Shown: piece by piece, positions 2,159-19,530 of the stretch
Layout: the number at the start of each line of letters is the position of its first letter
How positions within the stretch are numbered: the stretch's first letter is position 1
Assembly: GCA_028554795.2 (NCBI GenBank)
Contig: CM068842.1
Span: forward strand, 22,478,590 to 22,542,589
Direction of reading: 5' to 3'
DNA: 64,000 bases
DNA from: Sinohyriopsis cumingii
Taxonomy: Eukaryota > Mollusca > Bivalvia > Unionida > Unionidae
Notes under the pieces: model-generated
Database searches by the model: none
Told to the model about the DNA's origin: nothing
Seen by the model: the letters and a program-made list of their open reading frames with translations, nothing else
Position numbers and translations under genes: made by a program

Positions 2159-2500
2159 AGTAGTGAATGGGGCCACCCTAGGGACAATGGGACTTAGCAT
2201 TAAAAACACCCCTGGGCCACTCTAGGGACAATGGAAATTTAACATGGAGAAAAACGCTGGGCCACTCTAGGGACAATGGGAATTTAACATAGAGTTTGGG
2301 CTTGTCTAGGGACAAAGGGAATTGAACATGGGAATAGAGTTTGGGTTTGTCTAGGGACAAGGGGAACTGAATATGAGATTTTTTTTTTCAAAAAGTTTTT
2401 TTAAATTTAAATTTAAATTTAAATTTAAAAAAGGGTAGGCAATGGAAAGGCTATCTCTTTTCGAGAAATATGGCTGGCCCTGAAAAGGGCCTTTGGGTTT
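2159..2500 (+). repeat. Left terminal inverted repeat
   Basis: It matches the reverse complement of 19184-19530 almost base for base. Differences are a few substitutions near 2313-2385 and the lengths of the A and T runs. The outer 200 bp contain five CTAGGGACAA blocks (near 2178, 2222, 2267, 2306 and 2351) spaced about 39-45 bp, with the palindromic core CCCTAGGG in the outermost. Next come a T run and a (TTTAAA)n self-complementary tract. The inner end carries a histone-type stem-loop reading outward. The repeated block is a plausible integrase or terminal-protein site; that is inference. Confidence 0.95.
2454..2491 (-). terminator. Histone-type 3'-end signal in left TIR (stem-loop plus U7-like site)
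   Basis: On the minus strand the stem-loop GGCCCTTTTCAGGGCC occupies 2476-2491, preceded by AAA and followed by AGCCA. Thirteen bases further on is GAAAAGAGA (2454-2462), whose AAAAGAG core is exactly complementary to the CUCUUUU of U7 snRNA. The signal begins 24 bp past the stop codon of the minus-strand gene at 2516-2752. This is the layout of replication-dependent histone mRNAs: a 6-bp stem, a UUUC loop, an ACCCA-like flank and a histone downstream element. Use by SLBP and U7 is inferred. Confidence 0.75.
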
Positions 2501-2522
2501 ATGTTAATATTAATATTAACAT
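2501..2522. repeat. Perfect 22-bp AT palindrome next to the TIR
   Basis: The sequence from ATGTTAATATT to its mirror half is a perfect palindrome abutting the inner edge of the left TIR. It overlaps the last codons and stop (2516-2518) of the minus-strand gene. No copy is present at the right TIR. It could form a cruciform or hairpin; its role is unknown. Confidence 0.8.
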
Positions 2523-2752
2523 AGATGGCATCTGTCACATCTTCTTCTTCTTCTTCTTAAACTCCTTCTAACTGCCGGTCCATACACAAGTACCCTCTTG
2601 AGACATCCTTGTCTTTCTATGTAAACTCTCCTCATCCATTGACTAGTATCTGTCCTATCAACAACAGTCCACTTGGACCTGACATACATGAGCATGTCCG
2701 TCCTAAACATCATGGAAGACACAAGGGTGGATGACTCAACTGTGGTCCACAT
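2516..2752 (-). CDS. Small basic protein with Arg-rich, Cys-containing tail (78 aa), function unknown
   Basis: The ATG at 2752 opens a 78-residue frame. A TATA box on the same strand (CTATAAATAA, 2796-2805) lies about 45 bp upstream, and a histone-type stem-loop follows the stop. The C-terminus has a run of six arginines encoded by an AAG/AGA repeat and then CDRCHLC, which could bind metal or nucleic acid. No family was recognised. The matching promoter, stop-to-stem-loop spacing and position at the element's edge argue that it is a real gene. The small size and simple-repeat tail keep confidence moderate. Confidence 0.5.
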   Translation of the reverse strand: MWTTVESSTLVSSMMFRTDMLMYVRSKWTVVDRTDTSQWMRRVYIERQGCLKRVLVYGPAVRRSLRRRRRRCDRCHLC

Positions 2753-2795
2753 CTTGAAGCGACGAGAATAGGTGAATCAATGCAGTGAACTGCGC

Positions 2796-2924
2796 TTATT
2801 TATAGGTACAGGAAGGATTGAAACGGATTGAATTCATTCACCAATCCGAACACGCGTTACAAAATTCAGTCAGCTCGCATCCAATCCGAAGAGAGCAGCC
2901 TGTGACGTCACGTGGTCTATATAG
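2796..2924. promoter_or_regulatory. Divergent promoter with two TATA boxes, CRE/E-box and CCAAT motifs
   Basis: A minus-strand TATA (CTATAAATAA, 2796-2805) faces the 78-aa gene. A plus-strand TATA (TATATA, 2918-2923) lies about 50 bp before the ATG at 2972. Directly upstream of the plus TATA is a composite TGACGTCACGTG (2903-2914), which combines a CRE palindrome and an E-box. Two CCAATCCGAA blocks lie near 2840 and 2881. CRE and E-box are known binding sites of CREB/ATF and bHLH factors; their use here is inferred. Confidence 0.6.
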
Positions 2925-2971
2925 ATTCGTTAGCGCTTGTGTGCAGTCAATCTATGCGACAGTGATTCAAC

Positions 2972-3532
2972 ATGACGGAAACTCAGAAAACGATCCATTG
3001 GGGTGCACCAGCAAGGGAGACTGCCCAAGGGAACCCGGACTTACTTTCAGAAGAGGTACATTGGGATTTTGTGGATTTTCTTACCTCGCAAGAATTTGTT
3101 CCGGAACCTTCGTTACCTTCTTCATTACCGCAAGTGGAGAATTTTAGACAGAGACAGAAAGAAGAATTGGAGAAATTTATACAACGACAAAAGGAAGCGG
3201 AACAAGCTTTTCTCCTACAGCAACAGCAACAGCAACAAGAAGAGGTAAGAAAAAAACAACAGCAACAACAGCAAGAAGAAGTAGCAGCAAAGAAACAAGA
3301 GGGTGAAAATCAAACGGCTACGGTACTGTTGGACATTTTAGCGGAGTTAAGAAGTCTGAAACAAATGTATCAGACTTCTTTATCACGACCGAAGAGAATA
3401 CGACCTTCCCGAGCTAAACACGCCAACCCTGTGACTAAGCCTGTCGTACCACCCTTAGTGATTTCAACCCAATCATCAGAAGTAGGCCTCGGCCGTGGCA
3501 AAGGCTTAAGGCAGTTAAAACTGATTGGTTAA
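2972..3532 (+). CDS. Glutamine-rich coiled-coil protein (186 aa), function unknown
   Basis: The ATG at 2972 lies about 50 bp after a TATA box. Residues ~1-50 are mixed and Pro-rich. Residues ~55-115 form a highly charged helix with two glutamine runs (RQRQKEELEKF, then Q-rich blocks). A short hydrophobic helix (TVLLDILAELRSLKQMY) follows, then a basic tail with RPKRIRPSR. The pattern suggests an oligomerising, possibly nucleic-acid-binding accessory protein. The coil plus poly-Q resembles the protein at 16623-16982, which has the same kind of 3' signal. No known domain recognised. A histone-type stem-loop begins 27 bp after the stop. Confidence 0.7.
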   Translation: MTETQKTIHWGAPARETAQGNPDLLSEEVHWDFVDFLTSQEFVPEPSLPSSLPQVENFRQRQKEELEKFIQRQKEAEQAFLLQQQQQQQEEVRKKQQQQQQEEVAAKKQEGENQTATVLLDILAELRSLKQMYQTSLSRPKRIRPSRAKHANPVTKPVVPPLVISTQSSEVGLGRGKGLRQLKLIG

Positions 3533-3559
3533 ACTCACTCCTATACCATAAAGAAAAAA

Positions 3560-3597
3560 GGCCCTTTTCAGGGCCACCCACATTTCTCGAAAAGAAA
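3560..3597 (+). terminator. Histone-type 3'-end signal after the 186-aa gene
   Basis: GGCCCTTTTCAGGGCC (3560-3575) is flanked by AAAAAA on the 5' side and by exactly ACCCA on the 3' side. GAAAAGAAA follows 13 bases later (3589-3597). A polyadenylation signal AATAAA lies further on (3626-3631), as is often seen downstream of histone genes. Of the five copies this is the closest to the animal histone stem-loop consensus. Processing by SLBP/U7 is inferred from sequence alone. Confidence 0.8.
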
Positions 3598-3822
3598 TAC
3601 AATTTCAATTTGCCAATAACTCAAAAATAAACCCCACCCATTTTACCCTTATAGTACGTGTCTGTGTATGAGTGCGTGAGTGTAGCTTCTTATTTTAAAA
3701 TCAAAACTCAAAGACACTTACCTTATATCATTAATGTATTCTTTTATCCATTTTTTACAATCCAATTCACAATTCACAACAGAACACTTTAAAACGTTCG
3801 TACACTTCTTCTTTCTCATTAT

Positions 3823-4334
3823 TTAGTCTCTCTGTTTTTTGAATTTCTTCACCGTTTTTTCCTCATTTTCTTCCCTTCTTCTTTTCTTCTCCTGTTTCTT
3901 TGCCTCTTTTAAAAAGAATTGTCTTCTTTCTTCCTCTTCTTCCTCTGAAGAATCCCTCTCTTCTTTCGAAGAATCCCTCTCTTCTTTCGAAGAATCCCTC
4001 TCTTCTTCCGAAGAATCCCTCTCTTCTTCTGAAGAATCCTTCTTTTCTTCTGACTCCTCTTGTTTCTTTTTTGGGCAATCTGGAGACCAATGTCCTTTTT
4101 CTTTACAATAATAACTGGTATCTTGACTTTTGTCTTTTTTAGCCCCTGTTTTTTTCTTTTTTGACGGTCTGGACACTCTGAAGACCAATGCCCTTTCTTC
4201 TGACAGATATAGCAAGTATCCTGACTTTTATCTCGAAAGGAAGGAGAGTAGTCCGTAGGCTGGTCTGAAGAGAATTTTCTAATGACCCCTCGCAAAGCTC
4301 TGACGAAACGTTCCATCTGGGTAGTCTCTTCCAT
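3823..4334 (-). CDS. Zinc-knuckle (CCHC) protein with charged heptad repeats; frame change inside
   Basis: The first ATG (4334) lies about 50 bp downstream of a strong minus-strand TATA (4387-4397). The first frame encodes a CCHC knuckle, CYICQKKGHWSSEC (about 4172-4213), and stays open to 3909 with a basic repeated tail. The -1 frame, open to 3823, encodes a second, degenerate knuckle (YYCKEKGHWSPDC, first Cys replaced by Ser) and an acidic DSSEEER-type 7-residue repeat. The two frames meet at a seven-base A run on the coding strand (4149-4155) that is a classical A_AAA_AAA slip heptamer. Either an indel or programmed -1 frameshifting is possible. CCHC knuckles usually bind single-stranded nucleic acid. 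I do not know this gene as a standard Polinton gene. Confidence 0.65.
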
Positions 4335-4386
4335 CGTTGTGCTCGGTTTGAGAGTGAAATGAATAGTGAAAGGACAAGACACACAC

Positions 4387-4422
4387 CCTTTTATATACGC
4401 TGGTTTGTCATGACTATAAATT
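4387..4422. promoter_or_regulatory. Back-to-back TATA boxes, zinc-knuckle gene (-) and polymerase (+)
   Basis: On the minus strand TATATAAAAGG lies at 4387-4397. On the plus strand CTATAAATT lies at 4414-4422, about 47 bp before the polymerase ATG at 4469. Only about 20 bp separate the two boxes, so the genes probably share upstream control. Confidence 0.65.
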
Positions 4423-4468
4423 AGTCTATGGTGTTTAAACTTGAGTCATTTGACGTTTTGCACTCAAG

Positions 4469-5002: not shown

Positions 5003-5004
5003 AA

Positions 5005-5661: not shown

Positions 5662-7563
5662 CAGAAGAAATGTGCTTGTCAACTCCTGAGATTGTGCCGT
5701 ACGTGTAGACAAGGCATACGTACCAACAGTACCAAGGCACACGTATTTCGAGGAAAGAAAAAATGTCACATTTGTCACCACATCGTCGACTTGGAACACC
5801 AATGCTACGTGCAAAAAAACCAACCCCCACCAGAGAAAGAGGACGGTCACAAGAAGAAAAGCAATTTCATCTTTTTCGATTTCGAATGCATGCAAGAGAC
5901 CGGCATTCACATTCCTAATTTCTGCGTGGCTCATCGAGCGTGCGAGAAGTGCATTCAAGAACCTATCTTCAGTCATTGCCCTCACTGCAGCAAGATTCCT
6001 GGAGGGCGTGAAAAAATCTTTCGAGGACCGAACACGTTAGCCGATTTTGCCCAATGGGTCTTAGATCCCATCGACAAGACATGGAGCCAAGAGGACATCG
6101 AACGTTACGGAGATTGTCATCGTCATGCCACAGTGATGGCTCACAATTTCTCCGGATACGATGGACAGTTTCTTCTCAGATACTATACGGAACAAGGCAC
6201 CGAGCGTCCTAAAGTGACTTTGAACGGAGCCAAAATCATTTTCATGCAAGTGGGACAAGTGCAGTTTAAAGATTCGATGAGTTACTTGGCCATGCCTTTG
6301 AGTCGAATGCCTAAAACGTTTGGAATGACAGAAATGGCTAAAGGGTACTTTCCTCACTTTTTCAATACGGAAGCCAATCAACATGCCGTTCTACCCCATT
6401 TACCTGAGGCTCACTATTACGACCCCGACAACATGCGTACCGAACAACGAGAAGCTTTCTACGCTTGGTACCAAGCTCACGCCTCGGACCCTTTCGACAT
6501 TCAGGAAGAAATGCTAAAGTATTGTCGTTCCGACGTGGACATTTTACGGCGTTGCTGTGGAAAATTTCGAGAACTGTTCATGGAGCACGGAGGGGTCGAT
6601 CCTTTGAAAGAAGCTTGCACCATTGCCAAAGCGTGTTCCTTAGTGTATCGACAACGATTCATGCCTGAAAACACAGTGGCTGTCATCAGTCCTCAAACGA
6701 CCCACCTTGTCAAACGTCAATACTCGGTCAAAGCCCTACGTTGGTTACATTACTTGTGCGACAAGGAAGACAAGTGGATTCAGCATGCCCGCAACGGAGG
6801 GGGCGAAAAGACCATCGGAACGTATTCGGTCGATGGCTGGGACTTAGAAAACCCCAAGATTGTGTACAAGTTTAACGGTTGCTTATTTCACGGATGTCCC
6901 GTCTGTTACCCTGACCGTGGCACTAAGAATCAGTTTTTGCAACGAACCATGGAAGACTTGTACCAGGACACTTGTCAGCGACGCCTAAAGTTAGAACAGG
7001 AAGGATACCAAGTGGTGGAAATGTGGGAACACGAGTACGATCACCGTATGAAAACCGATCCCGAGTTTAAACGCCTCGTGGAAGGTTACCAGTTCATGGA
7101 CCCGCTGAACCCGAGGGATAGTTTGTACGGAGGAAGGACCAATGCCACCTGTTTGCTGTACCAAGCCGACGAAGAGAAAGGAGAAGAAATCAAATACTTG
7201 GACGTGTGTTCGCTGTATCCCTACGTGTGCAAATATTGTCGCTTTCCTGTAGGGCACCCGCAATTGTTAACGGAACACATCGACCTGAAAAACATTCGAC
7301 AATACGAAGGCTTGATCAAGTGTAAAGTTTTGCCTCCCACGAACCTATACCATCCCGTCTTACCTCACCATTGTCAACGCAAACTGATGTTTCCCTTGTG
7401 CCGTACTTGTGCCGAAACGTGCAACCAAGATCAGCCTTGCCATCACACCCAGGAAGAACGGGCCTTGACGGGAACCTGGGTCAGCATAGAATTGTTCAAA
7501 GCTCTGGACATGGGATACCAACTGTTAGAAGTGTACGAAATTTGCCACTTTCCCAAGACATAA
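5662..7563 (+). CDS. DNA polymerase B, exonuclease domain and palm motif A
   Basis: This is the same frame as the preceding piece, after the TGA, and it has no ATG of its own at the start. It begins with further CxxC pairs, then the 3'-5' exonuclease motifs: Exo I FIFFDFECM (~5870), Exo II HNFSGYDGQF (~6145), Exo III YCRSDVDILRR (~6520). Polymerase motif A follows as YLDVCSLYPYV (~7195), with the catalytic Asp and SLYP. All catalytic residues expected of a family B enzyme are present. The frame stops at a TAA (7561-7563) between motifs A and B, and the polymerase continues in frame directly after it. The enzyme would copy the linear element from its ends using a protein primer. Confidence 0.88.
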   Translation, partial: QKKCACQLLRLCRTCRQGIRTNSTKAHVFRGKKKCHICHHIVDLEHQCYVQKNQPPPEKEDGHKKKSNFIFFDFECMQETGIHIPNFCVAHRACEKCIQEPIFSHCPHCSKIPGGREKIFRGPNTLADFAQWVLDPIDKTWSQEDIERYGDCHRHATVMAHNFSGYDGQFLLRYYTEQGTERPKVTLNGAKIIFMQVGQVQFKDSMSYLAMPLSRMPKTFGMTEMAKGYFPHFFNTEANQHAVLPHLPEAHYYDPDNMRTEQREAFYAWYQAHASDPFDIQEEMLKYCRSDVDILRRCCGKFRELFMEHGGVDPLKEACTIAKACSLVYRQRFMPENTVAVISPQTTHLVKRQYSVKALRWLHYLCDKEDKWIQHARNGGGEKTIGTYSVDGWDLENPKIVYKFNGCLFHGCPVCYPDRGTKNQFLQRTMEDLYQDTCQRRLKLEQEGYQVVEMWEHEYDHRMKTDPEFKRLVEGYQFMDPLNPRDSLYGGRTNATCLLYQADEEKGEEIKYLDVCSLYPYVCKYCRFPVGHPQLLTEHIDLKNIRQYEGLIKCKVLPPTNLYHPVLPHHCQRKLMFPLCRTCAETCNQDQPCHHTQEERALTGTWVSIELFKALDMGYQLLEVYEICHFPKT

Positions 7564-8529
7564 CAGTACCACAAGGGTGACCCTACTCAGAAAGGCATTT
7601 TCGCCGACTACGTGGATGCCTTTTTGAAACTGAAACAAGAAGCCAGCGGCTATCCTTCCTGGTGTCACACTCCCGAAGATCAAATAAAATTCAAAGAGAA
7701 ATACTACGAACAAGAAGGCATCTCTTTAGACCACATCGAAAAAAACGAAGGCAGGCGATCGTTTGCCAAAGTGATGTTAAATTGCTTGTGGGGTAAAATG
7801 GCAAAACGACCGTGTTTACCCAAGACGGAATATTTGACAGAACCTTCCCGCTACTTCCAGATGATTCACGACAAAACCAAATACATGAAACACGTGGACG
7901 TCGTTCGAGAGGATTTGATCTTGGTCAATTACGAAGAAGATCTGGACTTTGTACAAGACGACCCTTTTGGAAATGTCATCATTGCGGCTTACGTGACAGC
8001 TCATGCTCGCTTAAAATTGTACGAAGCTTTAGAACTGTTAGAAGAACGCGTCCTGTACTTTGACATGGACAGTTGCATTTACATCCATCACCCGAGTCAA
8101 CAGCACCCTGACATCGAAGGAGACCGTTTAGGAGCCTGGACAGACGAGCATCCCGACGACAAGATTCTAAGTTTCGTCAGTGGCGGTCCCAAAAATTACG
8201 GCTACGAATACCGGGACAAACAAGGAGAAGTGCACACGACGTGCAAAGTGAAAGGACTGACTCTGAATTATCGTACTAGTCGAGTGGTCAACTTTGAGGT
8301 ATTGAAAGAAGCCTTGCAATCGGGAGAGGATGGAAACTTTAAAGTGACCACCTATCAACCGAACAAGATTGTACGTTTACCCACTCACTACATCGTCAGT
8401 CGACCCTTGGAAAAAGTCTATCAAATTGTATACCAGAAGCGAGTGCGACTTCCCAATCACTTTACGTTGCCGTACGGTCACGTTGGTATTGGTCTGTATA
8501 TAAAAAGGAACCCTAGGCAAGATCGATAG
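7564..8529 (+). CDS. DNA polymerase B, C-terminal catalytic piece (motifs B and C)
   Basis: The same frame continues after the TAA at 7561-7563. It contains FADYVDAFLKLKQEASGYP, motif B KVMLNCLWGKMAKR (~7770, the K...N..YG-type helix with W for Y), motif C YFDMDSCIY (~8055, with the two metal-binding Asp) and CKVKGLTLNY (~8240). These place the thumb and palm in the expected order. No catalytic residue is missing. The last codons overlap a TATA box (8497-8508) for the next gene. As read, the piece lacks a start codon of its own. Confidence 0.88.
   Translation, partial: QYHKGDPTQKGIFADYVDAFLKLKQEASGYPSWCHTPEDQIKFKEKYYEQEGISLDHIEKNEGRRSFAKVMLNCLWGKMAKRPCLPKTEYLTEPSRYFQMIHDKTKYMKHVDVVREDLILVNYEEDLDFVQDDPFGNVIIAAYVTAHARLKLYEALELLEERVLYFDMDSCIYIHHPSQQHPDIEGDRLGAWTDEHPDDKILSFVSGGPKNYGYEYRDKQGEVHTTCKVKGLTLNYRTSRVVNFEVLKEALQSGEDGNFKVTTYQPNKIVRLPTHYIVSRPLEKVYQIVYQKRVRLPNHFTLPYGHVGIGLYIKRNPRQDR
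8497..8508 (+). promoter_or_regulatory. TATA box inside the end of the polymerase gene
   Basis: TATATAAAAAGG lies within the last polymerase codons, about 48 bp before the ATG at 8556. Confidence 0.6.
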
Positions 8530-8555
8530 TTCATTGTTCATTGAAGTAACTTACC

Positions 8556-8947: not shown

Positions 8948-8962
8948 AAAAAAAAAACATTC

Positions 8963-8968: not shown

Positions 8969-8983
8969 CGTGTTCTGAAAAAG

Positions 8984-9038: not shown

Positions 9039-9767
9039 ATGGCTACCTCTGCTGTCTCTGCTCCCTCTTCCTCTACTGTCAAAGTCATCGACGAACACTT
9101 AGATCGTGCCAGTTGGGAGGCTTTGTATCTTCGCCATCCCTTTAACATGCTCATTGCTGGACCTAGCGGTTCAGGCAAAACCGAATTCGTCAAACGTTTG
9201 ATCGAACATAAACATCATTTGATCGATCGGCCACCTCAACGGATCGTGTGGTGTTACAAAGAGTGGCAATCGGCGTACAACCTCTTGCGAGAAAGTCAAG
9301 GCGATTCCATCGTGTTTGTGGAAGGCATTCCTAAAGAAGACGACGGTATCGTCTCTGACTCCCGTCAAACCCATTTGGTCATTTTCGACGACATGTTAGG
9401 AGAAGACGAAGAAGAAATTAAACTGTGGTTCACGCGCAAAGGGCATCACCGTAATGCCAGTGTCGTTTACATCACCCAAAATTTGTTTCAACAAAGTAAA
9501 GCCCATCGCACCATGAGTCTCAATGCGCATTACGTGGTCTTGTTTAAAAGCCCTCGAGATAAATCGCAAGTGCAAGTCTTAGCCAAACAGTTAGGAACGC
9601 CTTGGTTGACTCAGGCGTACGACGATGCCACTCAAACGCCACACGCCTATTTACTCGTCGATTTGAAACCTACGACTCCCGAGGATTTGCGATTTCGTAC
9701 CCACTTGTTTCACCACTGGTGCCAAGACGGAGGGCCTGTCGTGTACTCGTCTCCGTCCTCGACTTGA
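9039..9767 (+). CDS. DNA-packaging ATPase (FtsK/HerA type), 242 aa
   Basis: The ATG at 9039 (MATSAVSAP) was chosen because it follows the TATA at about 49 bp and has a good context (CACCATGG). The Walker A motif GPSGSGKT is at residues 41-48, and Walker B LVIFDDM at about 113-119. A VVYITQN strand follows, matching the sensor position of the A32-like packaging ATPases of Polintons and related viruses. The protein would pump element DNA into a preformed capsid. The frame is intact and of normal length. Confidence 0.92.
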   Translation: MATSAVSAPSSSTVKVIDEHLDRASWEALYLRHPFNMLIAGPSGSGKTEFVKRLIEHKHHLIDRPPQRIVWCYKEWQSAYNLLRESQGDSIVFVEGIPKEDDGIVSDSRQTHLVIFDDMLGEDEEEIKLWFTRKGHHRNASVVYITQNLFQQSKAHRTMSLNAHYVVLFKSPRDKSQVQVLAKQLGTPWLTQAYDDATQTPHAYLLVDLKPTTPEDLRFRTHLFHHWCQDGGPVVYSSPSST

Positions 9768-11936: not shown

Positions 11937-13046
11937 ATGGAAAAAGTCTTAGCCAGCATTTACTACGATCCCTCCCATCCTGCAGGTTACGCAGGAGTTC
12001 AAAAATTGTATCGTGCTGCCAAAACGCGACTGAAAAGTCTCCGTTTACCTCAAGTGCAACGATGGTTACAAGAACAAGCTACCTACACTTTACACAAACC
12101 CATTCGACGCAAGTTTGCGAGAAGTCGCACCCGAGTGGAAGGCATCGATCATCAATGGCAAGCCGATTTAGCCGATGTCTCTCATTTGGCCAGCTACAAT
12201 CGTGGCTACAAATATTTGTTTTGTGTCATCGACGTCTTTTCCAAATTTGCTTGGGTCGTACCCTTGACTTCCAAATCGAGCAGCGAGTTAGTGCGAGCCC
12301 TGCAACGGGTGTTGAAACAAAGCGGTCGTCACCCTCTTCGATGGCAAACGGACAAAGGCACCGAATTTCTGAACCAAGCTTTCCAAAAAGAATTAAAGAA
12401 ACGTGACATTCATTTTTTTACCACCGAGAATCCCGAAACCAAAGCCAGCATCGTGGAACGTTTTCAACGCACTTTGAAAGAACGCATGTGGAAATATTTT
12501 ACGCATCACCACACTCTGAAGTACATCGACATCTTACCGCACCTGGTGCAAGCGTACAACCAATCTTACCATCGAAGCATTGGACGTGCCCCGCAAGAAG
12601 TGACTCCCGACAACGAAGTGTTGGTGTTTGAGCGCCTGTTTGGTACGTCCCCGACGAGGGCTGTCCCCAAGAAAAGTGGAGAGCTGGCCGTAGGAGATTG
12701 GGTGCGCATTGGCAAAACCAAACGCACTTTCGACAAAGGTTACTTACCTAACTGGACGACCGAATTGTTTCGCGTCACTGGACGAGTGCATGGCCGTCAT
12801 CCTGCCGTCTATAAATTGGAAGACATGAACGGAGAAGTGCTCAAAGGAACGTTTTATTTGCCCGAGTTACAACGTGTCACCAAAAAAGAAGACGACGTGT
12901 ACGACATCGAAAGCATTCTCGAACGCAGAACCCGTAAAGTGGGCAAACGACGTGTCAAAGAAGTCAAAGTACGTTGGAAAGGATATCCACCCAGTTTTGA
13001 TTCTTGGATCGACGCTTCGCAAGTCATCGACTATAAAAAGAAGTGA
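11937..13046 (+). CDS. Retroviral-type integrase with C-terminal chromodomain (369 aa)
   Basis: The ATG at 11937 (MEKVLASIYY) follows the previous stop by 15 bp. The catalytic core has the DDE triad: D77 in WQADLAD, D139 in WQTDKGTEF and E174 in ASIVERFQRTLKERM, with spacing close to 35 residues between the last two. A basic SH3-like region is followed by a chromodomain (about residues 321-366: YDIESILERR, VRWKGYPPSFDSWI). The enzyme would insert the linear element and make the 6-bp duplication. The chromodomain may direct it to modified chromatin. The frame is intact, all three catalytic acids are present and the length is normal. Confidence 0.95.
   Translation: MEKVLASIYYDPSHPAGYAGVQKLYRAAKTRLKSLRLPQVQRWLQEQATYTLHKPIRRKFARSRTRVEGIDHQWQADLADVSHLASYNRGYKYLFCVIDVFSKFAWVVPLTSKSSSELVRALQRVLKQSGRHPLRWQTDKGTEFLNQAFQKELKKRDIHFFTTENPETKASIVERFQRTLKERMWKYFTHHHTLKYIDILPHLVQAYNQSYHRSIGRAPQEVTPDNEVLVFERLFGTSPTRAVPKKSGELAVGDWVRIGKTKRTFDKGYLPNWTTELFRVTGRVHGRHPAVYKLEDMNGEVLKGTFYLPELQRVTKKEDDVYDIESILERRTRKVGKRRVKEVKVRWKGYPPSFDSWIDASQVIDYKKK
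13031..13040 (+). promoter_or_regulatory. TATA box inside the integrase 3' end
   Basis: CTATAAAAAG overlaps the last integrase codons and lies only about 20 bp before the ATG at 13052. Either transcription starts close to that ATG, or translation begins further downstream. Confidence 0.45.
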
Positions 13047-13051
13047 CCATC

Positions 13052-13468
13052 ATGCCCTTTCACACAGCAGACGTAGCTACGTCGACCACTCCTCCTTCAC
13101 CTAGTTCTTCTGTGTAAGATTTACAAAAACAACCCTTGTGGGTGTGGTGTGGAGAACGTGTGCCTAAAACGCAAATCGTCTTTTTCTGCCAAATCTTCTT
13201 GGTGTATTGTGTCATCGGGGCAGCCATCGCCAATTTGAGTTTGCAACAAGGAGACAAACAATTGTGGACCATTTTATTGAGCAGTTGCATCGGTTACCTG
13301 CTTCCTAATCCCTCCCTGAAATTCACCTCGAACGGGAACCCCGGGAACCTTGTGTCCAGTGCCAGTGCCAGTCACCACTTCAATCACAACCAGAACCCCA
13401 TTTTAGACGGAGACACGCCTCTGACGTCCAGTAACCCCTCGGACAGCCACAGAACTCTGGAATTATGA
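13052..13468 (+). CDS. Polinton membrane protein with two hydrophobic helices; in-frame TAA
   Basis: The ATG at 13052 is followed after 21 codons by a TAA (13115-13117). The same frame then stays open to 13468. It encodes WVWCGERVPKTQ, a first hydrophobic helix (IVFFCQIFLVYCVIGAAIANL), a short linker SLQQGDKQLW, and a second helix (TILLSSCIGYLLPNPSLK). The Ser/Asn/His-rich tail looks disordered. A similar two-helix protein upstream of the penton gene is common in Polintons as I know them; the function is unknown. The TGA stop overlaps the next gene's ATG (ATGA, 13465-13468). The early TAA is either a mutation or marks a 5' leader. Confidence 0.65.
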
Positions 13469-14388
13469 GTCGCCAAAACCAATTTTACTTAACTTTACCC
13501 AGTGACAGTTCCATGGAGGTGTTTCCCAAGAACACGTTGTGCTGTTACACGGCCAAATTACCTCAGGCCATCCAGTTAGATCACGAAGCCCATTGGGAAG
13601 TGGCTTTAGTAGAAATGATTCACCCGACCCAAGTCCTCAATGTCCTTCCCAATCAAAATTTTTTTGATGTGGAAGTTCATGACGAGCAAATGCAACAGTG
13701 GATGGATAGCAATGTCAAATATGACAAGAAAACCCGTACACAAAAGTACACCACCTATCACTTGTTCATTCCCCCAGGCTATTATTTTAGTGGTCAACAT
13801 TTGGTCAGCACCATAACCTCCAGGTTTAATGTCGTGTTTCTGAAAGCTTTGGAGCATGTCAACAAAAATGTCACCATGGAGTACCACAAAGCAGCTCGTC
13901 GCTTCTTGATGAAATTTGAACGGAGTAAAATCATGTCCATTTTATTTTGTCCTGAATTGTTTGACATGTTGGGCGGAGACATGGACATGAGAAAGACCAT
14001 GATCAAGAAAAACGAATTACCCATCGTTTACGACAACGAGTCTTTTAGCAAGTTATTTCGTTCCCCGGTAGAACTGAACCAAGGACTGAATTTGATGTTC
14101 GTGTATTCCGATGTGGTGGAGTACAACGTGGTGGGACACACCTCCGTACCGTTACTGCGTGTCATTCCTTTCAAAGTAGATTCTGCCACGAACGCTGACG
14201 AGGAAGGTGGAAACACTTACCACGTCCACCGCGAATTTGTCCATCCTCACTATTTGCCGGTCAGCAAGTCGTATTTGGACACGGTCAACATTGCTATAAA
14301 AGGAGATTTGGGACAAAATATTCCATTCACCAAAGGAAAAGTCACGGTGAAACTCCATTTTCGAAAACGGTTCTCTCACGACTCTTAA
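13465..14388 (+). CDS. Minor capsid (penton-type) protein, 307 aa
   Basis: The ATG at 13465 shares ATGA with the preceding stop. The sequence MSRQNQFYLTLPSDSSMEVFPKNTLCCYTAKLPQ, then HWEVALVEM and YTTYHLFIPPGYYFSG is the typical start of Polinton single-jelly-roll penton proteins. The position just before the major capsid gene also fits. The protein would form the five-fold vertices. The frame is intact. The gene's last 100 bp contain a TATA box (14294-14303) for the next gene. With no TATA close upstream, it may be translated from the same mRNA as the preceding membrane protein. Confidence 0.88.
   Translation: MSRQNQFYLTLPSDSSMEVFPKNTLCCYTAKLPQAIQLDHEAHWEVALVEMIHPTQVLNVLPNQNFFDVEVHDEQMQQWMDSNVKYDKKTRTQKYTTYHLFIPPGYYFSGQHLVSTITSRFNVVFLKALEHVNKNVTMEYHKAARRFLMKFERSKIMSILFCPELFDMLGGDMDMRKTMIKKNELPIVYDNESFSKLFRSPVELNQGLNLMFVYSDVVEYNVVGHTSVPLLRVIPFKVDSATNADEEGGNTYHVHREFVHPHYLPVSKSYLDTVNIAIKGDLGQNIPFTKGKVTVKLHFRKRFSHDS
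14294..14303 (+). promoter_or_regulatory. TATA box inside the penton gene 3' end
   Basis: CTATAAAAGG lies about 98 bp before the ATG at 14392. Confidence 0.5.
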
Positions 14389-14391
14389 GTC

Positions 14392-14808
14392 ATGTATCCA
14401 GTGTACCGAGGGGTTGCTCGACAGCGAGGACACGGCTTAGGAGATATGTTAAAATCGGCCTTTCGTTCGGTGGCCCCGGTGTTGAAACCGATGGTGACAC
14501 GCGAATTGCACGCCTTGAAAGATGCGGCACTGACGCAAGGCAAAGAATTTCTCCAAAATGTCATCATCGACAAACAAAACCCTAAAGAAGCCTTCATGAG
14601 GGCAGGCAAAAATGTCTTGCTGCAAACGGGCAAAGACATTTTGTGTCACCGAGAAACACCTATAAATGCCCTGCACGCTACCGAGTCAGGCATTCAGCAA
14701 GGACAAGGCAGAAAGAGACGACGAAGAAAACACCCTTTCACCAGACTTCAAGCGAGAAAGGCCAAGAAAAGAAGAACCGTTCGAGACTTAGACGTTTTCG
14801 ATTATTGA
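14392..14808 (+). CDS. Small basic virion-type protein (YRGxxRQRGHGLG start), 138 aa
   Basis: The ATG at 14392 follows the penton stop by 3 bp. The N-terminus MYPVYRGVARQRGHGLGDML is a motif that recurs in Polinton and related virus proteins encoded between the penton and major capsid genes. It resembles precursor proteins that bind DNA or membranes in the capsid. The middle is a helical Ala/Lys/Gln-rich segment. The tail is strongly basic (RKRRRRKHPF, RKAKKRR). A role in virion assembly or DNA condensation is inferred. The frame is intact. Confidence 0.72.
   Translation: MYPVYRGVARQRGHGLGDMLKSAFRSVAPVLKPMVTRELHALKDAALTQGKEFLQNVIIDKQNPKEAFMRAGKNVLLQTGKDILCHRETPINALHATESGIQQGQGRKRRRRKHPFTRLQARKAKKRRTVRDLDVFDY
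14660..14669 (+). promoter_or_regulatory. Candidate TATA box of the major capsid gene
   Basis: CTATAAATGC lies in the 3' part of the preceding gene, about 155 bp upstream of the capsid ATG at 14824. The distance is longer than for the other genes, so this is less certain. Confidence 0.35.
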
Positions 14809-14823
14809 GAAAAGAGACAAAAA

Positions 14824-16190
14824 ATGATGCACCGAGAATCTTGCGCTTGTTCCAAGACGGAACTGGATCTGTTTACCATGCCCCCCACGATGATGACGAT
14901 GCAAGAATCCCAGTGGGTGGAATTTCACCCCGTCTCCTCACTGACCGATTCCGCTCCCATCGAGTTTGAAATCAAAGGACAGCCCGAAGATTACATCGAT
15001 CTGAAAGTCAAAATTCTAGATAAGACTGGAGGTGCTATAGACGATGAAGCAGTAGCTCCCGTCAACAATTTCATGCATTCCTTGTTCAGTGGAGTGGACT
15101 TGTACTTGAATAACAAACTGGTCAGTAGCAGCATGGATACTTACCCTTATCGTGCCTACCTGGAAAATCTCTTGACGTACGGAATAGATGCCAAGAACAC
15201 TCATCTCAACGCCTGTGTGGTATGGGAAGCTGACGAACCTACCAAGTTTGAAATATTGGAAACTGATGAAAAGAAAGACAACAATGATGGATTTGTAGAA
15301 CGAAGAAAGAGAATCACGGGAGCCGACACAAGTTTAGAACTGATGGATCGTTTGCATTTGGACATGTGGTTGCAAGAAAAGTATTTGCTGAACGGGGTGG
15401 ATGTCCGCCTGAGACTGAATCGTAGCAGTGCCGCTTTCCATTTGATGGCTGATAGTGACGGTTACAAAACCAAAATCCTAGAAGCCAGACTCTACGTACG
15501 CCGTGTGGAAGTGTTACCTAAAGTGGGAAACGACATCAGTCAGACGTTGAGCAGAACGACCGCCAAGTATCCCATACGACGCGTGGAAGTGAAAACCTTC
15601 ACCATTCCCAAGGGACAGCGATCCATGATCGAAGATCATCTGTTCCAAGGACAGTTACCCAAACGTTTGATCGTTGGTATCGTCGAGAATACAGCCTTCA
15701 ACGGAGCTGCCGAAAAAAATCCTTTCTATTTTCAACACTTTGGCGTGTCCAAAATCGAGAATACAGCCTTCAACGGAGCTGCCGAAAAAAAAATCCTTTC
15801 TACTTTCAACACTTTGGCGTGTCCAAAATCGAAGTCAGTCGCGATGGCATGACCTTGTGTACCCGACCTTTCGAACCTGACTTTACCAAGAAGAATTACT
15901 TGAGATCGTACTTGTCCCTGTACGAAGCCACCGGACAGTTAGGAACCAATACCAGTCACGGTATTACGTACGAGGATTATGCAGGAGGCTACGCTTTGTG
16001 GGCTTTCGATTTCACTCCAGACCAAGGCAGCGACGAGGGACATTTCCACCCTATAAAATCCGGCCAGATTCGTGTGGAAATTCAGTTTAAAGACCGAGAC
16101 CCTGATGAAACGGTGAACGTCATCCTGTATGCAGAATTCGATAATACCATAGAAATCAACAGTTTGAGAGAAGTCATCCTAGATTACTAG
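14824..16190 (+). CDS. Major capsid protein (double jelly-roll), interrupted by a duplicated segment and frame change
   Basis: The ATG at 14824 (MMHRESCACSKTELDLFTMPPT) leads into ESQWVEFHPVSSLTDSAPIEFEIKG, DYIDLKVKIL and PVNNFMHSLFSGVDLYLNNKLV. These are diagnostic blocks of Polinton hexon-like capsid proteins. The C-terminal part (from about 15819, in another frame) has TKKNYLRSYLSLYEATG and GYALWAFDFTPDQ, also typical. Between them a 72-bp segment is repeated in tandem (15685-15830), and the second copy has nine A's where the first has seven, so the first frame ends at 15852. The gene covers the whole capsid protein. Whether it is functional depends on whether the duplication and run length are real, or on frame slippage at A_AAA_AAA. 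Confidence 0.85.
15685..15830 (+). repeat. 72-bp tandem duplication within the major capsid gene
   Basis: GAGAATACAGCCTTCAACGG begins at 15685 and again at 15757. The copies are almost identical. The second has two extra A's in its A run (15785-15793) and one T-to-C change. A duplication of 72 bp alone would keep the frame; the extra two bases break it. Confidence 0.9.
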
Positions 16191-16240
16191 AAACCATGGA
16201 AGACTGTTATCCCTCTTTACCTACTGGAGAAACTTTTAGT

Positions 16241-16425
16241 GTTGGATTATTGTTAAAAAATGTTAGAGTTGTTGTTGTTTAGTGTTAAGTGATTTTTGAA
16301 TAAAAAATGTTGTGTTTTGAAAAAATTGTTTGATGTTATATTGTTGGATTATTGTTAAAAATGTTAGAGTTGTTGTTTAGTGTTAAGTGATTTTTGAATA
16401 AAAAATGTTGTGTTTAGAAAAAAAT
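16241..16425 (+). repeat. Two tandem copies of a ~100-bp AT-rich 3' UTR segment
   Basis: GTTGGATTATTGTTAAAA starts at 16241 and at 16343. Each copy ends with GAATAAAAAATGTTGTGTTT, so the polyadenylation signal AATAAA is duplicated downstream of the capsid gene. It is likely the 3' end region of the capsid transcript. Confidence 0.75.
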
Positions 16426-16528
16426 GCCTTTGTGGTTTGTTTAGCTATAAGAATGTTGGATTGATGCTCTTTCATTTCTTACTATCCCTCTCATGACACT
16501 CACTAAACGTTGCGACTCAAAAACCGTG

Positions 16529-16572
16529 TGGGGGATGTTTTCCTTCACGTCCGCGCTTTGACTTTAAGAACC
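16529..16572 (+). promoter_or_regulatory. Shared cassette promoter, copy A
   Basis: GGGGGATGTTTTCCTTCACG followed by TCCGCGCTTTGACTTTAAG. The same block occurs at 17383 and 18699, always 50-65 bp before the ATG of a small accessory gene. In the other copies the end reads CACTATAA, a TATA-like box; here it is degenerate (ACTTTAAG). Confidence 0.75.
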
Positions 16573-16622
16573 GGGGTTGTTTCCAGTCTAACCATCCATT
16601 GTCGACTCATCCTCCTACGAAG

Positions 16623-16982
16623 ATGTGCTCCAAACTAGCTAAGGTCAACGAAGCCTACGTGAATTTGCATAGGGTCAGACACAGTCTGATACCGAAGCCA
16701 GAAGAAATAGAGAATGTGAGAATGTTAAAAATCACTGAAGACCTGATAGAAGAGCTCTTCAGAGAAGAAATGAGCAGGGAAAAAGAAGAATGGACAGAGA
16801 AGTACAGACTTCAGAGACAGCAGCAACAGCAGCAACAACAACAACAGCAGCATCAACCTGAAGCTGACAGAGGCTTTGTCGATTGTCGTATCGACACCAA
16901 AGAGTTCTTCTTCTCTTTTCGAAGAAGCAGACCTATCGCCAGAAAGTCTATCCTCAGAGGACATCGCATTCTTAGAAACTAA
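16623..16982 (+). CDS. Accessory cassette protein A: helical, poly-Gln (119 aa)
   Basis: The ATG at 16623 follows cassette promoter A. The protein starts MCSKLAKVNEAYVNLHRVRHSL and is helical and charged to about residue 65. It then has an 11-residue glutamine run (CAG/CAA), then a Cys/Arg-rich tail (RGFVDCRIDTKEF, RRSRPIARK). No family recognised. It shares its layout with the two following genes: the same promoter, a short coiled-coil ORF, then a histone-type stem-loop 28 bp after the stop. It is probably an accessory factor of the element. Confidence 0.6.
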   Translation: MCSKLAKVNEAYVNLHRVRHSLIPKPEEIENVRMLKITEDLIEELFREEMSREKEEWTEKYRLQRQQQQQQQQQQQHQPEADRGFVDCRIDTKEFFFSFRRSRPIARKSILRGHRILRN

Positions 16983-17010
16983 AAAAGAATGCCATAGCAA
17001 ACAAAAAAAC

Positions 17011-17048
17011 AGCCCTTTTCAGGGCTACCCAATACTCTAGAAAAGAAA
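17011..17048 (+). terminator. Histone-type 3'-end signal, cassette A
   Basis: AGCCCTTTTCAGGGCT (17011-17026) is flanked by AAAAAAAC and ACCCA, with GAAAAGAAA at 17040-17048. The outer G-C pair of the canonical stem is replaced by A-T, and both arms have changed together, so pairing is kept. AATAAA lies downstream (17091-17096), as after the copy at 3560. Confidence 0.78.
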
Positions 17049-17382
17049 TAACAATCCATTTGCCAATGTGTGTAGGTAGAGTAGTGTGAAAATAAACACT
17101 AACTCTTTTTTAAAAAAATGTGAGGGTATGTGTTTGTGTTTGTAAGTGGTTAAGTAACTTGGTATGGATAGTAGATTAAAATGATGTCTTTTTTTTGTGT
17201 TTGAGGTGTAAATTTGGGGTTAGATTGGATTGCTTTGCGTATAAGGATAGTCTATTGAAGTGATTTATAAAAAAATTTTAAAATAGTGATGGGTAGCATA
17301 AAAAAGTGAGTGAGTGTTTCTTTTAGGTCCGCGCGTTGTTGTTTTTTGGTTATGATCTAGGTAAGATCAATTTTATGTTTTA

Positions 17383-17422
17383 GGGGGATGTTTTCCATCA
17401 CGTCCGCGCTTTCACTATAAAT
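17383..17422 (+). promoter_or_regulatory. Shared cassette promoter, copy B
   Basis: GGGGGATGTTTTCCATCACG then TCCGCGCTTTCACTATAAA. It is nearly identical to copies A and C. It lies about 50 bp before the ATG at 17473. A partial extra GGTCCGCGCG lies at about 17326. Confidence 0.75.
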
Positions 17423-17472
17423 TGAAACTCGCTGGGCAGTCTAGCTACCCTTGTTGATTGATCAACACAAGA

Positions 17473-17781
17473 ATGAATAGCAGAATAAGCAAACTTCTTG
17501 AACTCCAGATACATCTGGAATATGTCAGGCGCCTGTTAAATGAACTGGCCGCGGAGGCTATAGTAGAAGAGGAAAGAATGAAGAACGAAGAGGAGGAGAG
17601 AAGACAGAGGGAAGAGGAGGAAAAGAAACTAGAAGAGAGGATGTCGTACAATATTCCCGAGACAGAGGATTGGGGTGTTGAAGCGAATCATCCTCCCTCT
17701 GCGCTCCCCAGAAGAAAGGTGAAAGGAGACTGGGGAAGAAGATGCGTGTGTGGCGCCAGGCCAGGAAGGTGCAACCATTAG
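17473..17781 (+). CDS. Accessory cassette protein B: coiled coil (102 aa)
   Basis: The ATG at 17473 follows cassette promoter B. An N-terminal helix (RISKLLELQIHLEYVRRLLNEL) runs into a long Glu/Arg-rich coiled coil (about residues 28-58). The tail has CVCGARPGRC, a possible small metal site. Family unknown. The N-terminal Leu-rich helix resembles in pattern that of protein C, suggesting that the cassettes are diverged duplicates. A histone-type stem-loop lies 30 bp after the stop. Confidence 0.6.
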   Translation: MNSRISKLLELQIHLEYVRRLLNELAAEAIVEEERMKNEEEERRQREEEEKKLEERMSYNIPETEDWGVEANHPPSALPRRKVKGDWGRRCVCGARPGRCNH

Positions 17782-17811
17782 ATAGGTGCATCTGGAGTTC
17801 AAAAAAAAAAC

Positions 17812-17849
17812 AGCCCTTTTAAGGGCTACCCAATACTCTAGAAAAGAAA
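17812..17849 (+). terminator. Histone-type 3'-end signal, cassette B
   Basis: AGCCCTTTTAAGGGCT (17812-17827), then ACCCA, then GAAAAGAAA at 17841-17849. The loop is TTTA where the other copies have TTTC. The next ~150 bp also match the region after copy A, including a GT run expanded here (about 17868-17890), so promoter, gene and 3' end were duplicated as one unit. Confidence 0.75.
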
Positions 17850-17963
17850 TAACTATCGATTTGACAATGTGTGTGTGTGTGTGTGTGTGTAGGTAGAGTA
17901 GTGTGATTATAAACACTAACTCTTTTTTCATAGTGAGAGGGTATGTGTTTGTGTGTTTGTGTT

Positions 17964-18677
17964 TGTAACTGCTCACGTACGATTGTGTGGATAGTAGATT
18001 ATGGATTTTGTTTATTGTTTCTTAGCGTATGTGGAGAGTATAGTTTGGGTTTTGTAACCGCTCACGTACGATTGTGTGGATAGTACATTATGGATTTTGT
18101 TTATTGTTTCTTAGCGTATGTGGAGAGTATAGTTTGGGTTTTGTAACAGATCACGTACGATTGTGTGGATAGTAGATTATGGATTTTGTTTATTGTTTCT
18201 TAGCGTATGTGGAGAGTATAGTTTGGGTTTTGTAACCGATCACGTGCGATTGTGTGGATAGTAGATTATGGATTTTGTTTATTGTTTCTTAGCGTATGTG
18301 GAGAGTATAGTTTGGGTTTTGTAACCGCTCACGTACGATTGTGTGGATAGTAGATTATGGATTTTGTTTATTGTTTCTTAGCGTATGTGGAGAGTATAGT
18401 TTGGGTTTTGTAACCGCTCACGTACGATTGTGTGGATAGTAGATTATGGATTTTGTTTATTGTTTCTTAGCGTATGTGGAGAGTATAGTTTGGGTTTTGT
18501 AACCGATCACGTACGATTGTGTGGATAGTAGATTATGGATTTTGTTTATTGTTTCTTAGCGTATGTGGAGAGTATAGTTTGGGTTTTGTAACCGCTCACG
18601 TACGATTGTGTGGATAGTAGATTATGGATTTTGTTTATTGTTTCTTAGCGTATGTGGAGAGTATAGTTTGGGTTTTA
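17964..18677 (+). repeat. 89-bp tandem repeat, eight copies, upstream of cassette C
   Basis: CTCACGTACGATTGTGTGG recurs exactly every 89 bp from 17972 to 18595. The copies differ at only one to three bases (for example CGCTCACG versus CGATCACG, and CACGTGCG once). The array ends about 20 bp before cassette promoter C. Each unit has a CACGTACG/CACGTG-like motif. No reading frame of note. It may be an enhancer-like array or a recent slippage expansion. Confidence 0.92.
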
Positions 18678-18698
18678 TTATATGAAATGAGAAAAGTA

Positions 18699-18738
18699 GG
18701 GGGATGTTTTCCTTCACGTCCGCGCTTTCACTATAAGA
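18699..18738 (+). promoter_or_regulatory. Shared cassette promoter, copy C
   Basis: GGGGGATGTTTTCCTTCACG then TCCGCGCTTTCACTATAAG, matching copies A and B. It lies about 40 bp before the ATG at 18778. Confidence 0.75.
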
Positions 18739-18777
18739 ACCCACAGTATTCGTCGTTCAAACCATTCTACAAAGAAG

Positions 18778-19167
18778 ATGGCTTCTAACCAAATGGACAA
18801 AATACAAACATTGCAAGACGTTTTAGACAACTTAGGAATGATGGAACAGATGTTAATAAGACTCGTTGAAGACCATTATTCCTATAGTCCCCATCGTGTA
18901 AAGATGGAAATTAATAACTTGAGAAAGGTAAAGGACAAGATAAGTGGTGTAATGAAAGAGATAAAGGAGGAGAAGGAGGATGAAGAGAAAAGGATAAGGA
19001 TGAGAGCATGGAATGAAAAAATTGAAAAAGAAGAAGAAAATGAAAAGAGGAAGAAAGAAGAGGAGGAAGAGAAGAAGAAAGAAGAGGAGGAGAAAAAAAA
19101 AAAAGAAAAGAAGAGAAAGAGTGTTGGAGATAAAATAAGAACTTGGTGGAGAAAAAGAAGAAATTAG
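18778..19167 (+). CDS. Accessory cassette protein C: long charged coiled coil (129 aa)
   Basis: The ATG at 18778 follows promoter C. The N-terminus (MDKIQTLQDVLDNLGMMEQMLIRLVEDH) is a Leu-rich helix. Residues ~58-115 are almost only Glu and Lys, a single long charged helix. The C-terminus is basic (KSVGDKIRTWWRKRRN). No family recognised. It is the outermost gene on the right and mirrors the small basic gene at the left end. Its stem-loop lies within the right TIR, 25 bp after the stop. Confidence 0.6.
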   Translation: MASNQMDKIQTLQDVLDNLGMMEQMLIRLVEDHYSYSPHRVKMEINNLRKVKDKISGVMKEIKEEKEDEEKRIRMRAWNEKIEKEEENEKRKKEEEEEKKKEEEEKKKKEKKRKSVGDKIRTWWRKRRN

Positions 19168-19183
19168 AAGCAGAAGAAGAAGA

Positions 19184-19530
19184 AAACCCAAAGGCCCTTT
19201 TCAGGGCCAGCCATATTTCTCGAAAAGAGATAGCCTTTCCATTGCCTACCCTTTTTTAAATTTAAATTTAAATTTAAATTTAAAAAAAACTTTTTTAAAA
19301 AAAAAAAAAAACCCATATTCAATTCCCCTTGTCCCTAGACAAACCCAAACTCTATTCCCATGTTCAATTCCCCTTGTCCCTAGACAAGCCCAAACTCTAT
19401 GTTAAATTCCCATTGTCCCTAGAGTGGCCCAGCGTTTTTCTCCATGTTAAATTTCCATTGTCCCTAGAGTGGCCCAGGGGTGTTTTTAATGCTAAGTCCC
19501 ATTGTCCCTAGGGTGGCCCCATTCACTACT
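19184..19530 (-). repeat. Right terminal inverted repeat
   Basis: Reverse complement of 2159-2500, with a few substitutions and longer A/T runs. It contains the outward-reading stem-loop, the (TTTAAA)n tract and five TTGTCCCTAG blocks. It ends CACTACT before the target duplication. Confidence 0.95.
19193..19230 (+). terminator. Histone-type 3'-end signal in right TIR
   Basis: GGCCCTTTTCAGGGCC (19193-19208), flank AGCCA, then GAAAAGAGA (19222-19230) with the full AAAAGAG complement of the U7 5' end. It mirrors the signal in the left TIR and serves the outermost right gene. Confidence 0.78.

Follow-up and report, generated by a model that had tools for sequence, protein, structure and literature searches.

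Histone-type 3′ processing signals and histone-promoter-like boxes at the terminal genes of a Polinton in the bivalve Sinohyriopsis cumingii

DNA viruses and transposons are known to borrow the 3′-end machinery of their hosts through canonical poly(A) signals, and the locus described here raises the question of whether a mobile element may use the histone-specific branch of that machinery. The locus lies in a 64,000-nt stretch of the genome of the bivalve Sinohyriopsis cumingii (hereafter, the window; GenBank assembly GCA_028554795.2, contig CM068842.1, positions 22,478,590–22,542,589, forward strand), which contains a 17.4-kb Polinton at window positions 2159–19530. Five terminal genes of this element, here termed SL genes 1–5, had been proposed in an earlier note on the same DNA to end in histone-type 3′ processing signals. 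In histone mRNA, according to excerpts of two papers (PMC9756948, PMC6303110), SLBP binds the stem-loop, U7 small nuclear RNA (snRNA) pairs with a downstream element, and cleavage gives an mRNA without poly(A). Judging from the sequence features described below, the Polinton probably expresses its five terminal genes like host histone genes, with transcription in S phase, cleavage by the SLBP/U7 machinery, and lack of poly(A).

Histone-type signals downstream of five Polinton genes

All five stem-loops of the earlier note were found at their positions and distances from the stop codons (Table 1), and so were the loops (TTTC in four of the five, TTTA at 17812), the 3′ flanks (ACCCA after the three internal stems and AGCCA after the two stems located in inverted repeats), and the purine-rich motif GAAAAGA(A/G)A, which begins 13 nt after every stem (5/5). 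The covariance-model check proposed there gave matches of Rfam RF00032 (Histone3) at all five sites, with scores of 31–41 bits and E-values from 2e-5 to 3e-9. Under curated thresholds, the Rfam scan of the whole window returned four matches, three of which were Histone3 (3555–3599 (+), 2451–2496 (−), and 19188–19233 (+)); the gathering cut-off of RF00032, 34 bits, is passed by three of the five stem-loops (41.2, 35.6, and 35.6 bits). The remaining two were the next best in a relaxed-threshold scan of positions 1–22000 (31.1 and 31.0 bits; E ~2e-5), in which the best match to any other family had an E-value of 0.068. Such sub-threshold matches to other Rfam families, and likewise matches to bacterial-type promoters and terminators, were set aside as chance or irrelevant. 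The stem-loops at 2476 and 19193 are one sequence occurring twice, once in each arm of the inverted repeat, so that the element holds four independent stem-loops, not five.

Comparison with the host histone genes

A search of the host assembly (2.9 Gb, 1,138 contigs) for histone H4 gave 114 matches, of which 109 are full-length and 100% identical, mostly spaced ~8.3 kb apart. The host histone repeat (L030) is a quintet of H4, H2B, H2A, H1, and H3; within the 120 matches listed for its H1, the named entries closest to it are H1 proteins of molluscs (Mytilus, oysters, chiton, abalone, and Biomphalaria), as would be expected of a mollusc, with one entry labelled as a bacterial metagenome-assembled genome, Sedimenticola. 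The 3′ ends of these genes read GGCCCTTTTTAGGGCC (H4 and H3), GGCCCTTTTCAGGGCC (H2B), GGCCCTTTTAAGGGCC (H2A), and GGTCCTTTTCAGGACC (H1), and the stems are followed by TAGAAAAG in four genes and by CCGAAAAG in H2A. The spacing from stem to GAAAAG, 13 nt in the element, is 13 nt (H4, H2B, and H3) or 14 nt (H2A and H1) in the host. The stem core and the spacing are the same in the element and in the host histone genes, and the loops of the element are two of the three that occur in the host. In a common scan, the five host stem-loops scored 35.0–39.4 bits, and the stem-loops of three Polinton copies 41.7–45 bits at four of six sites and 31.4 and 30.6 bits at the other two. This comparison, which the earlier note had called for, finds the stem-loop family, GAAAAG, and the spacing of 13–14 nt common to both, and supports the identification of the sequences following the SL genes as histone-type 3′ processing signals.

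A further motif near CAATTTTGCC lies ~11 nt after GAAAAG in SL genes 2–4 and in host H4, H2B, and H2A, and is weak in genes 1 and 5, H3, and H1; it was reached in 0 of 2000 resamplings, an exploratory figure, since the consensus was chosen after seeing the data.

Promoter boxes upstream of three SL genes

Beyond what the earlier note had claimed, three of the five SL genes (3, 4, and 5) carry a box of the host histone promoters (Table 1). The 24-mer GATGTTTTCCATCACGTCCGCGCT is present upstream of both host H2B and gene 4, the upstream regions of host H1 and gene 4 are alike at 25 of 26 bases, and an inverted match of 19/20 bases (E 0.03) is located upstream of host H2A. The box, GATGTTTTCC(A/T)TCACGTCCGCGCT, with host sites in L030 at 985–1008 (H2B), 4385–4410 (H1), and, weaker and inverted, 1825–1844 (near H2A), is a candidate histone-coordinating promoter element of the host. 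TCACGTCCGCGC lies 78 bp before the ATG in gene 3, 75 bp in gene 4, and 64 bp in gene 5; in the host it lies 96 bp before the ATG of H2B and 94 bp before that of H1, and the H4 variant lies 72 bp ahead of its own. The sole other GTCCGCGC in the whole window, at 5365 (−), falls within coding sequence.

When the whole element was compared with the host histone repeat by blastn (short-word settings), eleven matches below E 0.01 were obtained, all of them SL-gene upstream boxes or stem-loops; a single 21-mer, matched at the two H4 promoters in L030, accounts for two of these. The longest exact match of the element to the histone repeat was 12–16 bases in 40 first-order resamplings of the latter. 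The region between SL genes 1 and 2 (2752–2972) appears to be a divergent promoter shared by the two, with CCAAT-type repeats (CCAATCCGAA) and GTGACGTCACGTGG, and without the histone box.

Compared with animal replication-dependent histone genes, the SL genes have in common the stem-loop, the A-rich 5′ flank, the ACCCA-type 3′ flank, GAAAAGA 13 nt further on, short uninterrupted open reading frames (ORFs), and, in three of them, the host promoter box, placed about as far ahead of the ATG. They differ in that the encoded proteins are non-histone, that the family is mobile with tens of thousands of sites, and that ends without poly(A) are predicted for their transcripts.

Distribution in the genome and covariation of the stems

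The pattern of stem-loop, 13-nt spacer, and GAAAAG occurs at 50,905 sites in the genome (25,197 + 25,708) and the reversed pattern at none, which excludes chance at the genome scale; the pattern leaves the first stem pair free (A-C included), and its matches are not all perfect stems. The promoter-box pattern is found 25,341 times (12,528 + 12,813), again with no occurrence of the reversed pattern. With ~109 histone repeats and three matching genes in each, the host histones are estimated to account for roughly 330 stem-loop sites; nearly all of the pattern sites should therefore be those of the element family. If each element carries four to five sites, the numbers suggest a copy number on the order of ten thousand, which is an estimate and not a count.

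Boxes were then taken regardless of stem-loops, namely the first 47 of 100 listed on contig C1, up to position 3,132,615, since stem-loops were listed no further than 3,133,115. A pattern stem-loop lies 421–783 nt downstream on the same strand at 32 of the 47 boxes and on the opposite strand at none (0/47); at nineteen there is also one on the same strand 250–1000 nt upstream, as tandem genes predict. Among the other 15 boxes, four are followed by an intact stem-loop with a 14-nt spacer, two by intact stems without GAAAAG, and the rest by stems with one mismatch (six boxes), three (one), or five (two). The stem-loop pattern with GAAAAG is kept at 36/47 boxes, and an intact or remnant stem-loop is present at 47/47.

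An Rfam search of the genome, in which the best 75 of 589,472 first-look candidates were scored, was sampled at both extremes, with L001–L008 being the eight best and L075–L080 the six lowest of the scored sites; all 14 loci read are Polinton ends (14/14). In L001–L008, fourteen stem-loops fit the pattern, the first pair being A-C in two of them (in L001 and L007); two neighbouring stem-loops are mutated (L002 and L004), and one intact stem of L002 is without the downstream element. The absence from related copies that the earlier note had named as telling against its proposal was not what we found, there being tens of thousands of sites, and the signal or its mutated remnant in the copies read. 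In L004 (894–1481) and L008 (893–1543), a different and longer right-end ORF (~200 aa from stop to stop) replaces SL gene 5 and keeps the promoter box and the histone-type stem-loop, an apparent exchange of genes within a fixed cassette.

Paired changes in the stem had been taken as a sign of selection on RNA. The pairing is real, with G-C changed to A-U at pair 1, and this part of the claim stands; the change separates two subfamilies only, so that it counts for few events. In an alignment of 16 stem-loops (11 from the element and five from the host; seven distinct), made without L075, L078, L079, and L005a, 97.6% of the cells pair, and two-sided changes occur at two of the six stem pairs, pair 1 in the element and pair 3 in host H1 only. 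The observed value was reached by 8 of 500 shuffles for the covariation score, by 47 of 500 for the two-sided pairs, and by 500 of 500 for the pair types, the last two measures being unremarkable. The stem covariation is based on few independent events. The six lowest-scoring sites read, all above the Rfam cut-off, pair as U-G in L075–L077 and are broken (C-A) in L078–L080.

SL proteins and their selection

In blastp against host H4, H3, H2A, and H2B (H1 standing outside the comparison), the five SL proteins gave a best E-value of 0.93. On these comparisons the SL proteins are not histones, and a histone origin was rejected for them. A 16-base match to H3-coding sequence at 13042–13057, around which nothing further was recognised by eye, was taken as chance. 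For gene 2, the protein databases contain 20 homologues, 56–91% identical, whose contigs are all ≤2.3 kb long.

Ratios of nonsynonymous to synonymous divergence (dN/dS) were obtained pairwise by the Nei–Gojobori method, in some cases from partial alignments, with low-complexity matches between different genes left out and with gene 3 having no orthologue among the ORFs compared. The ratio is 0.10–0.13 for gene 1 against three copies, 0.16–0.23 for gene 4 against four copies, and 0.05–0.11 for gene 5, where three ORFs from three copies were compared and one more comparison was saturated; nine of the ten comparisons of these genes are at synonymous divergences (dS) of 0.73–1.79. Genes 1, 4, and 5 are under purifying selection. 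Gene 2 gave 0.23–0.67 in four pieces from three copies at dS 0.07–0.18.

Proposed mode of expression

From the arrangement of these signals we infer that the mRNAs are cleaved and lack poly(A), that expression is timed to S phase, and that the modules derive from host histone genes. The five terminal accessory genes would be expressed as if they were replication-dependent histone genes. SLBP would bind the host-type stem-loop and U7 would pair with the purine-rich downstream element, the putative pairing stretch of the element being UAGAAAAGA; an endonucleolytic cut a few bases after the stem would then yield mRNAs without poly(A). The host histone promoter box 64–78 bp ahead of the ATG in three of the five genes would give transcription in S phase, and both signals together would restrict accumulation of the five proteins to that phase, when host DNA and the element replicate. 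With stem-loop and GAAAAG at the host geometry and with the promoter box, S-phase expression is the natural reading. The earlier note had reached it from the 3′ ends, and the boxes of host-histone type before three genes lend it independent, sequence-level support.

A wider proposal can be put forward tentatively: the transposon may have taken over the host histone programme, promoter and non-poly(A) 3′ end alike, for a gene block made only in S phase, and could compete for SLBP and U7. Its signals number tens of thousands, against some hundreds in the host histone genes, so that competition could arise during DNA replication.

Several observations weigh against histone-like expression of the five genes. 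AATAAA is present past the stem-loop in genes 2 and 3, at +94 and +109 nt from the stop, and poly(A) ends are possible there; no AATAAA or ATTAAA occurs within 400 nt in three of the five SL genes, as also in 11 of the 15 other ORFs of the element, so that its absence from SL genes is no argument by itself. The wording of the earlier note, that the signals stand "instead of poly(A) sites", was thus too strong. The human histone gene H2AC18 also has a poly(A) option, as an excerpt of PMC9756948 describes. Genes 1 and 2 showed no promoter box in the window search. In five 8.5-kb pieces of the window flanks, the longest exact matches to the element were 14, 14, 14, 20, and 16 bases, and the 20-mer exceeds the range of the resamplings. 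As a control, the window flank was compared with the histone repeat as well and gave matches stronger than those of the element, up to 91.7 bits; the forty flank matches listed fall in L030 2608–2638 and 6316–6753, between genes, and resemble simple repeats. Among the 47 promoter-chosen copies, the stem is damaged at nine and GAAAAG is missing at two more. The eight loci of the coding comparison had been picked by Rfam score, which biases their stem-loops at genes 1 and 5 towards intact ones. Of the ten comparisons of genes 1, 4, and 5, nine keep an undamaged stem-loop (the exception is gene 4 of L004) and nine keep GAAAAG (the exception is gene 1 of L002).

The searches for the processing machinery and for other hosts weigh on the same side. 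For U7 snRNA, an RF00066 search of the assembly, in which the 65 best of 801,960 first-look candidates were scored, yielded a single weak hit (29.3 bits; E 0.27), and two pattern searches gave 210 and 85 places against 259 and 50 for the reversed-pattern controls; none of the 27 candidate places read (8 + 19) was convincing by its 3′ hairpin, and several candidates with the same surroundings were discarded as, by eye, one interspersed repeat. For SLBP, a family search at E 1e-3, repeated at E 10, and a single-protein search, none of them able to bridge introns or backed by a working positive control, gave nothing convincing in the assembly; four weak places from the E 10 search were judged by eye not to be SLBP. 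The presence of histone arrays implies the SLBP/U7 machinery in this host. No clear Polinton of another host emerged from scans of viral contigs for PolB (family B DNA polymerase) and ATPase and from one scan of genome contigs; the alignments of L066 and L067 with the ATPase query span only 23 and 46 residues. Two stem-loop patterns gave 3 and 4 stretches in viral contigs, three without a matching 5′ arm and four without GAAAAG in the next 45 nt, and the phage records contained no match to the element ATPase.

Alternative explanations

The signals might be passive relics of a histone segment, promoter and 3′ end together, captured by an ancestor of the element, with the genes now using other signals and ordinary poly(A) tails. 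The AATAAA motifs of genes 2 and 3 and the damaged stem-loops among copies agree with this explanation, although neutral decay once a copy has integrated would leave damage of the same kind. Gene 4 provides a direct measure, as its stem-loops were not chosen by Rfam score: three of four (L005, L006, and L008; damaged in L004) are intact with GAAAAG at dS 0.86–1.30. The pattern also persists at the 36 of 47 promoter-chosen copies, and distinct gene types, namely genes 1–5 and the other right-end ORF of L004 and L008, retain the same signal. We regard relics as unlikely.

It is improbable, too, that the transfer ran in reverse, a Polinton copy having given regulatory sequence to the host histone cluster. 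The box is known from one host, and the direction is not polarised by it. The histone stem-loop is conserved across animals (Rfam RF00032), and the 3′ signal, at least, would predate the element. Furthermore, the box or a variant precedes host H2B and H1, the shorter GTCCGCGC core precedes H4, and the inverted match precedes H2A.

That the hairpins act as DNA, as parts of the terminal repeats for transposition, replication, or packaging with a mere look-alike of an RNA form, is suggested by the two of five that sit within inverted repeats. The other three are internal, all five are sense-oriented 24–30 nt past a stop codon with GAAAAG at the histone spacing, and the coupling of box and stem-loop is confined to the same strand (32/47 versus 0/47), which makes this explanation highly improbable. 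Chance or convergent hairpins without biological meaning, conceivable for short motifs with a stem of merely 6 bp, are already refuted by the counts (50,905 versus 0), along with the covariance E-values and the exact 24-mer promoter match.

Structure and core genes of the element

The element is a Polinton, flanked by a 6-bp target-site duplication and bounded by inverted repeats with arms of 230 and 122 nt that are 98% and 97% complementary (Table 1). With Polintons/Mavericks (Polintoviricetes, adintovirus-like elements) it shares the inverted repeats, the 6-bp duplication, a PolB of the protein-primed type, a Pox_A32-type ATPase, and an rve integrase with a chromodomain; it differs in the terminal gene block under histone-type expression signals. 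In the window copy, the polymerase ORF is apparently truncated, the next ORF (7774–8529) being without a Pfam match, and the region 14824–16190 is also apparently interrupted. In the stretch expected to hold the capsid genes (13465–15852), the ORFs 13465–14388, 14392–14808, and 14824–15852 had no Pfam match, and 13465–14388 and 14824–15852 had no NCBIfam match and none below E 0.05 in PHROGs. When the assembly was searched with the ATPase, the 150 best of 35,541 first-look candidates were scored, all 150 being 98–100% identical to the query.

A tandem repeat of ~90 bp, in about eight copies by eye, occupies window positions ~17960–18680 between SL genes 4 and 5, and an element gene at 3909–4334 (−) encodes a CCHC zinc knuckle with a basic low-complexity tail. 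Elsewhere in the window are a host open frame with a Phospholip_A2_2 domain (33500–34669; PF05826, E 2.4e-24) and a tRNA-like gene by Rfam (53677–53749 (−); 34.2 bits).

Table 1. Positions of the SL genes, their predicted signals, and the structural features of the Polinton in the window (HDE, histone downstream element)
Feature	Position	Strand	Remarks
SL gene 1	2516..2752	-	78 aa, Arg-rich, Cys residues C-terminal
Gene 1 histone-type stem-loop	2476..2491	-	24 nt past stop; 35.6 bits
Gene 1 GAAAAG core, HDE-like downstream element	2457..2462	-	
SL gene 2	2972..3532	+	186 aa
Gene 2 histone-type stem-loop	3560..3575	+	27 nt past stop; 41.2 bits
Gene 2 GAAAAG core	3589..3594	+	
SL gene 3	16623..16982	+	119 aa
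Gene 3 histone-type stem-loop, AGCCC/GGGCT	17011..17026	+	28 nt past stop; 31.0 bits
Gene 3 GAAAAG core	17040..17045	+	
SL gene 4	17473..17781	+	102 aa
Gene 4 histone-type stem-loop, loop TTTA	17812..17827	+	30 nt past stop; 31.1 bits
Gene 4 GAAAAG core	17841..17846	+	
SL gene 5	18778..19167	+	129 aa, highly charged
Gene 5 histone-type stem-loop	19193..19208	+	25 nt past stop; 35.6 bits
Gene 5 GAAAAG core	19222..19227	+	
Histone-promoter-like box of gene 3	16530..16559	+	23/24 bases as in host H2B promoter
Histone-promoter-like box of gene 4	17383..17412	+	exact 24-mer of host H2B promoter at 17387-17410
Histone-promoter-like box of gene 5	18699..18728	+	23/24 bases as in host H2B promoter
21-mer identical to host H4 promoter	17317..17337	+	upstream of gene 4
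Left inverted repeat	2159..2500	+	contains gene 1 stem-loop on - strand
Right inverted repeat	19184..19530	-	contains gene 5 stem-loop
Target-site duplication, left copy	2153..2158	none	6 bp, AATGTG
Target-site duplication, right copy	19531..19536	none	6 bp, AATGTG
Family B DNA polymerase, N-terminal part	5890..7563	+	Pfam PF03175, E 4.8e-35
Packaging ATPase, Pox_A32-like	9039..9767	+	Pfam PF04665
Integrase, rve + chromo domains	11937..13046	+	Pfam PF00665+PF00385

Significance

Like DNA viruses and transposons with canonical poly(A) signals, the element of the window would borrow the 3′-end processing of host RNA polymerase II; it differs from them in apparently using the histone-specific branch. 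That branch is described as confined to histone mRNAs in excerpts of PMC6303110 and PMC12775136. In open-licence PubMed Central, outside which most subscription papers lie, none of the matches listed, as far as their text extended, links Polintons with histone stem-loops, SLBP, U7, or histone promoters, and the exact pairs Polinton with SLBP and Polinton with histone stem-loop returned no paper. The main text of one paper found with histone and adintovirus terms (PMC11244446) mentions none of the terms stem-loop, SLBP, U7 snRNA, and histone gene. The parts are of known kinds, and their combination within a mobile element appears to be new.

Five non-histone genes on histone signals would, if true, be the apparent first use of the histone pathway by a genomic parasite, as far as found, and would explain, in a form open to test, how a virus-like element that has integrated can couple the expression of its genes to replication of the host DNA. 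Since a single genome holds candidate SLBP/U7 target sites by the tens of thousands, the family may serve as a natural experiment, and the element offers a route to defining the histone promoter elements of its host.

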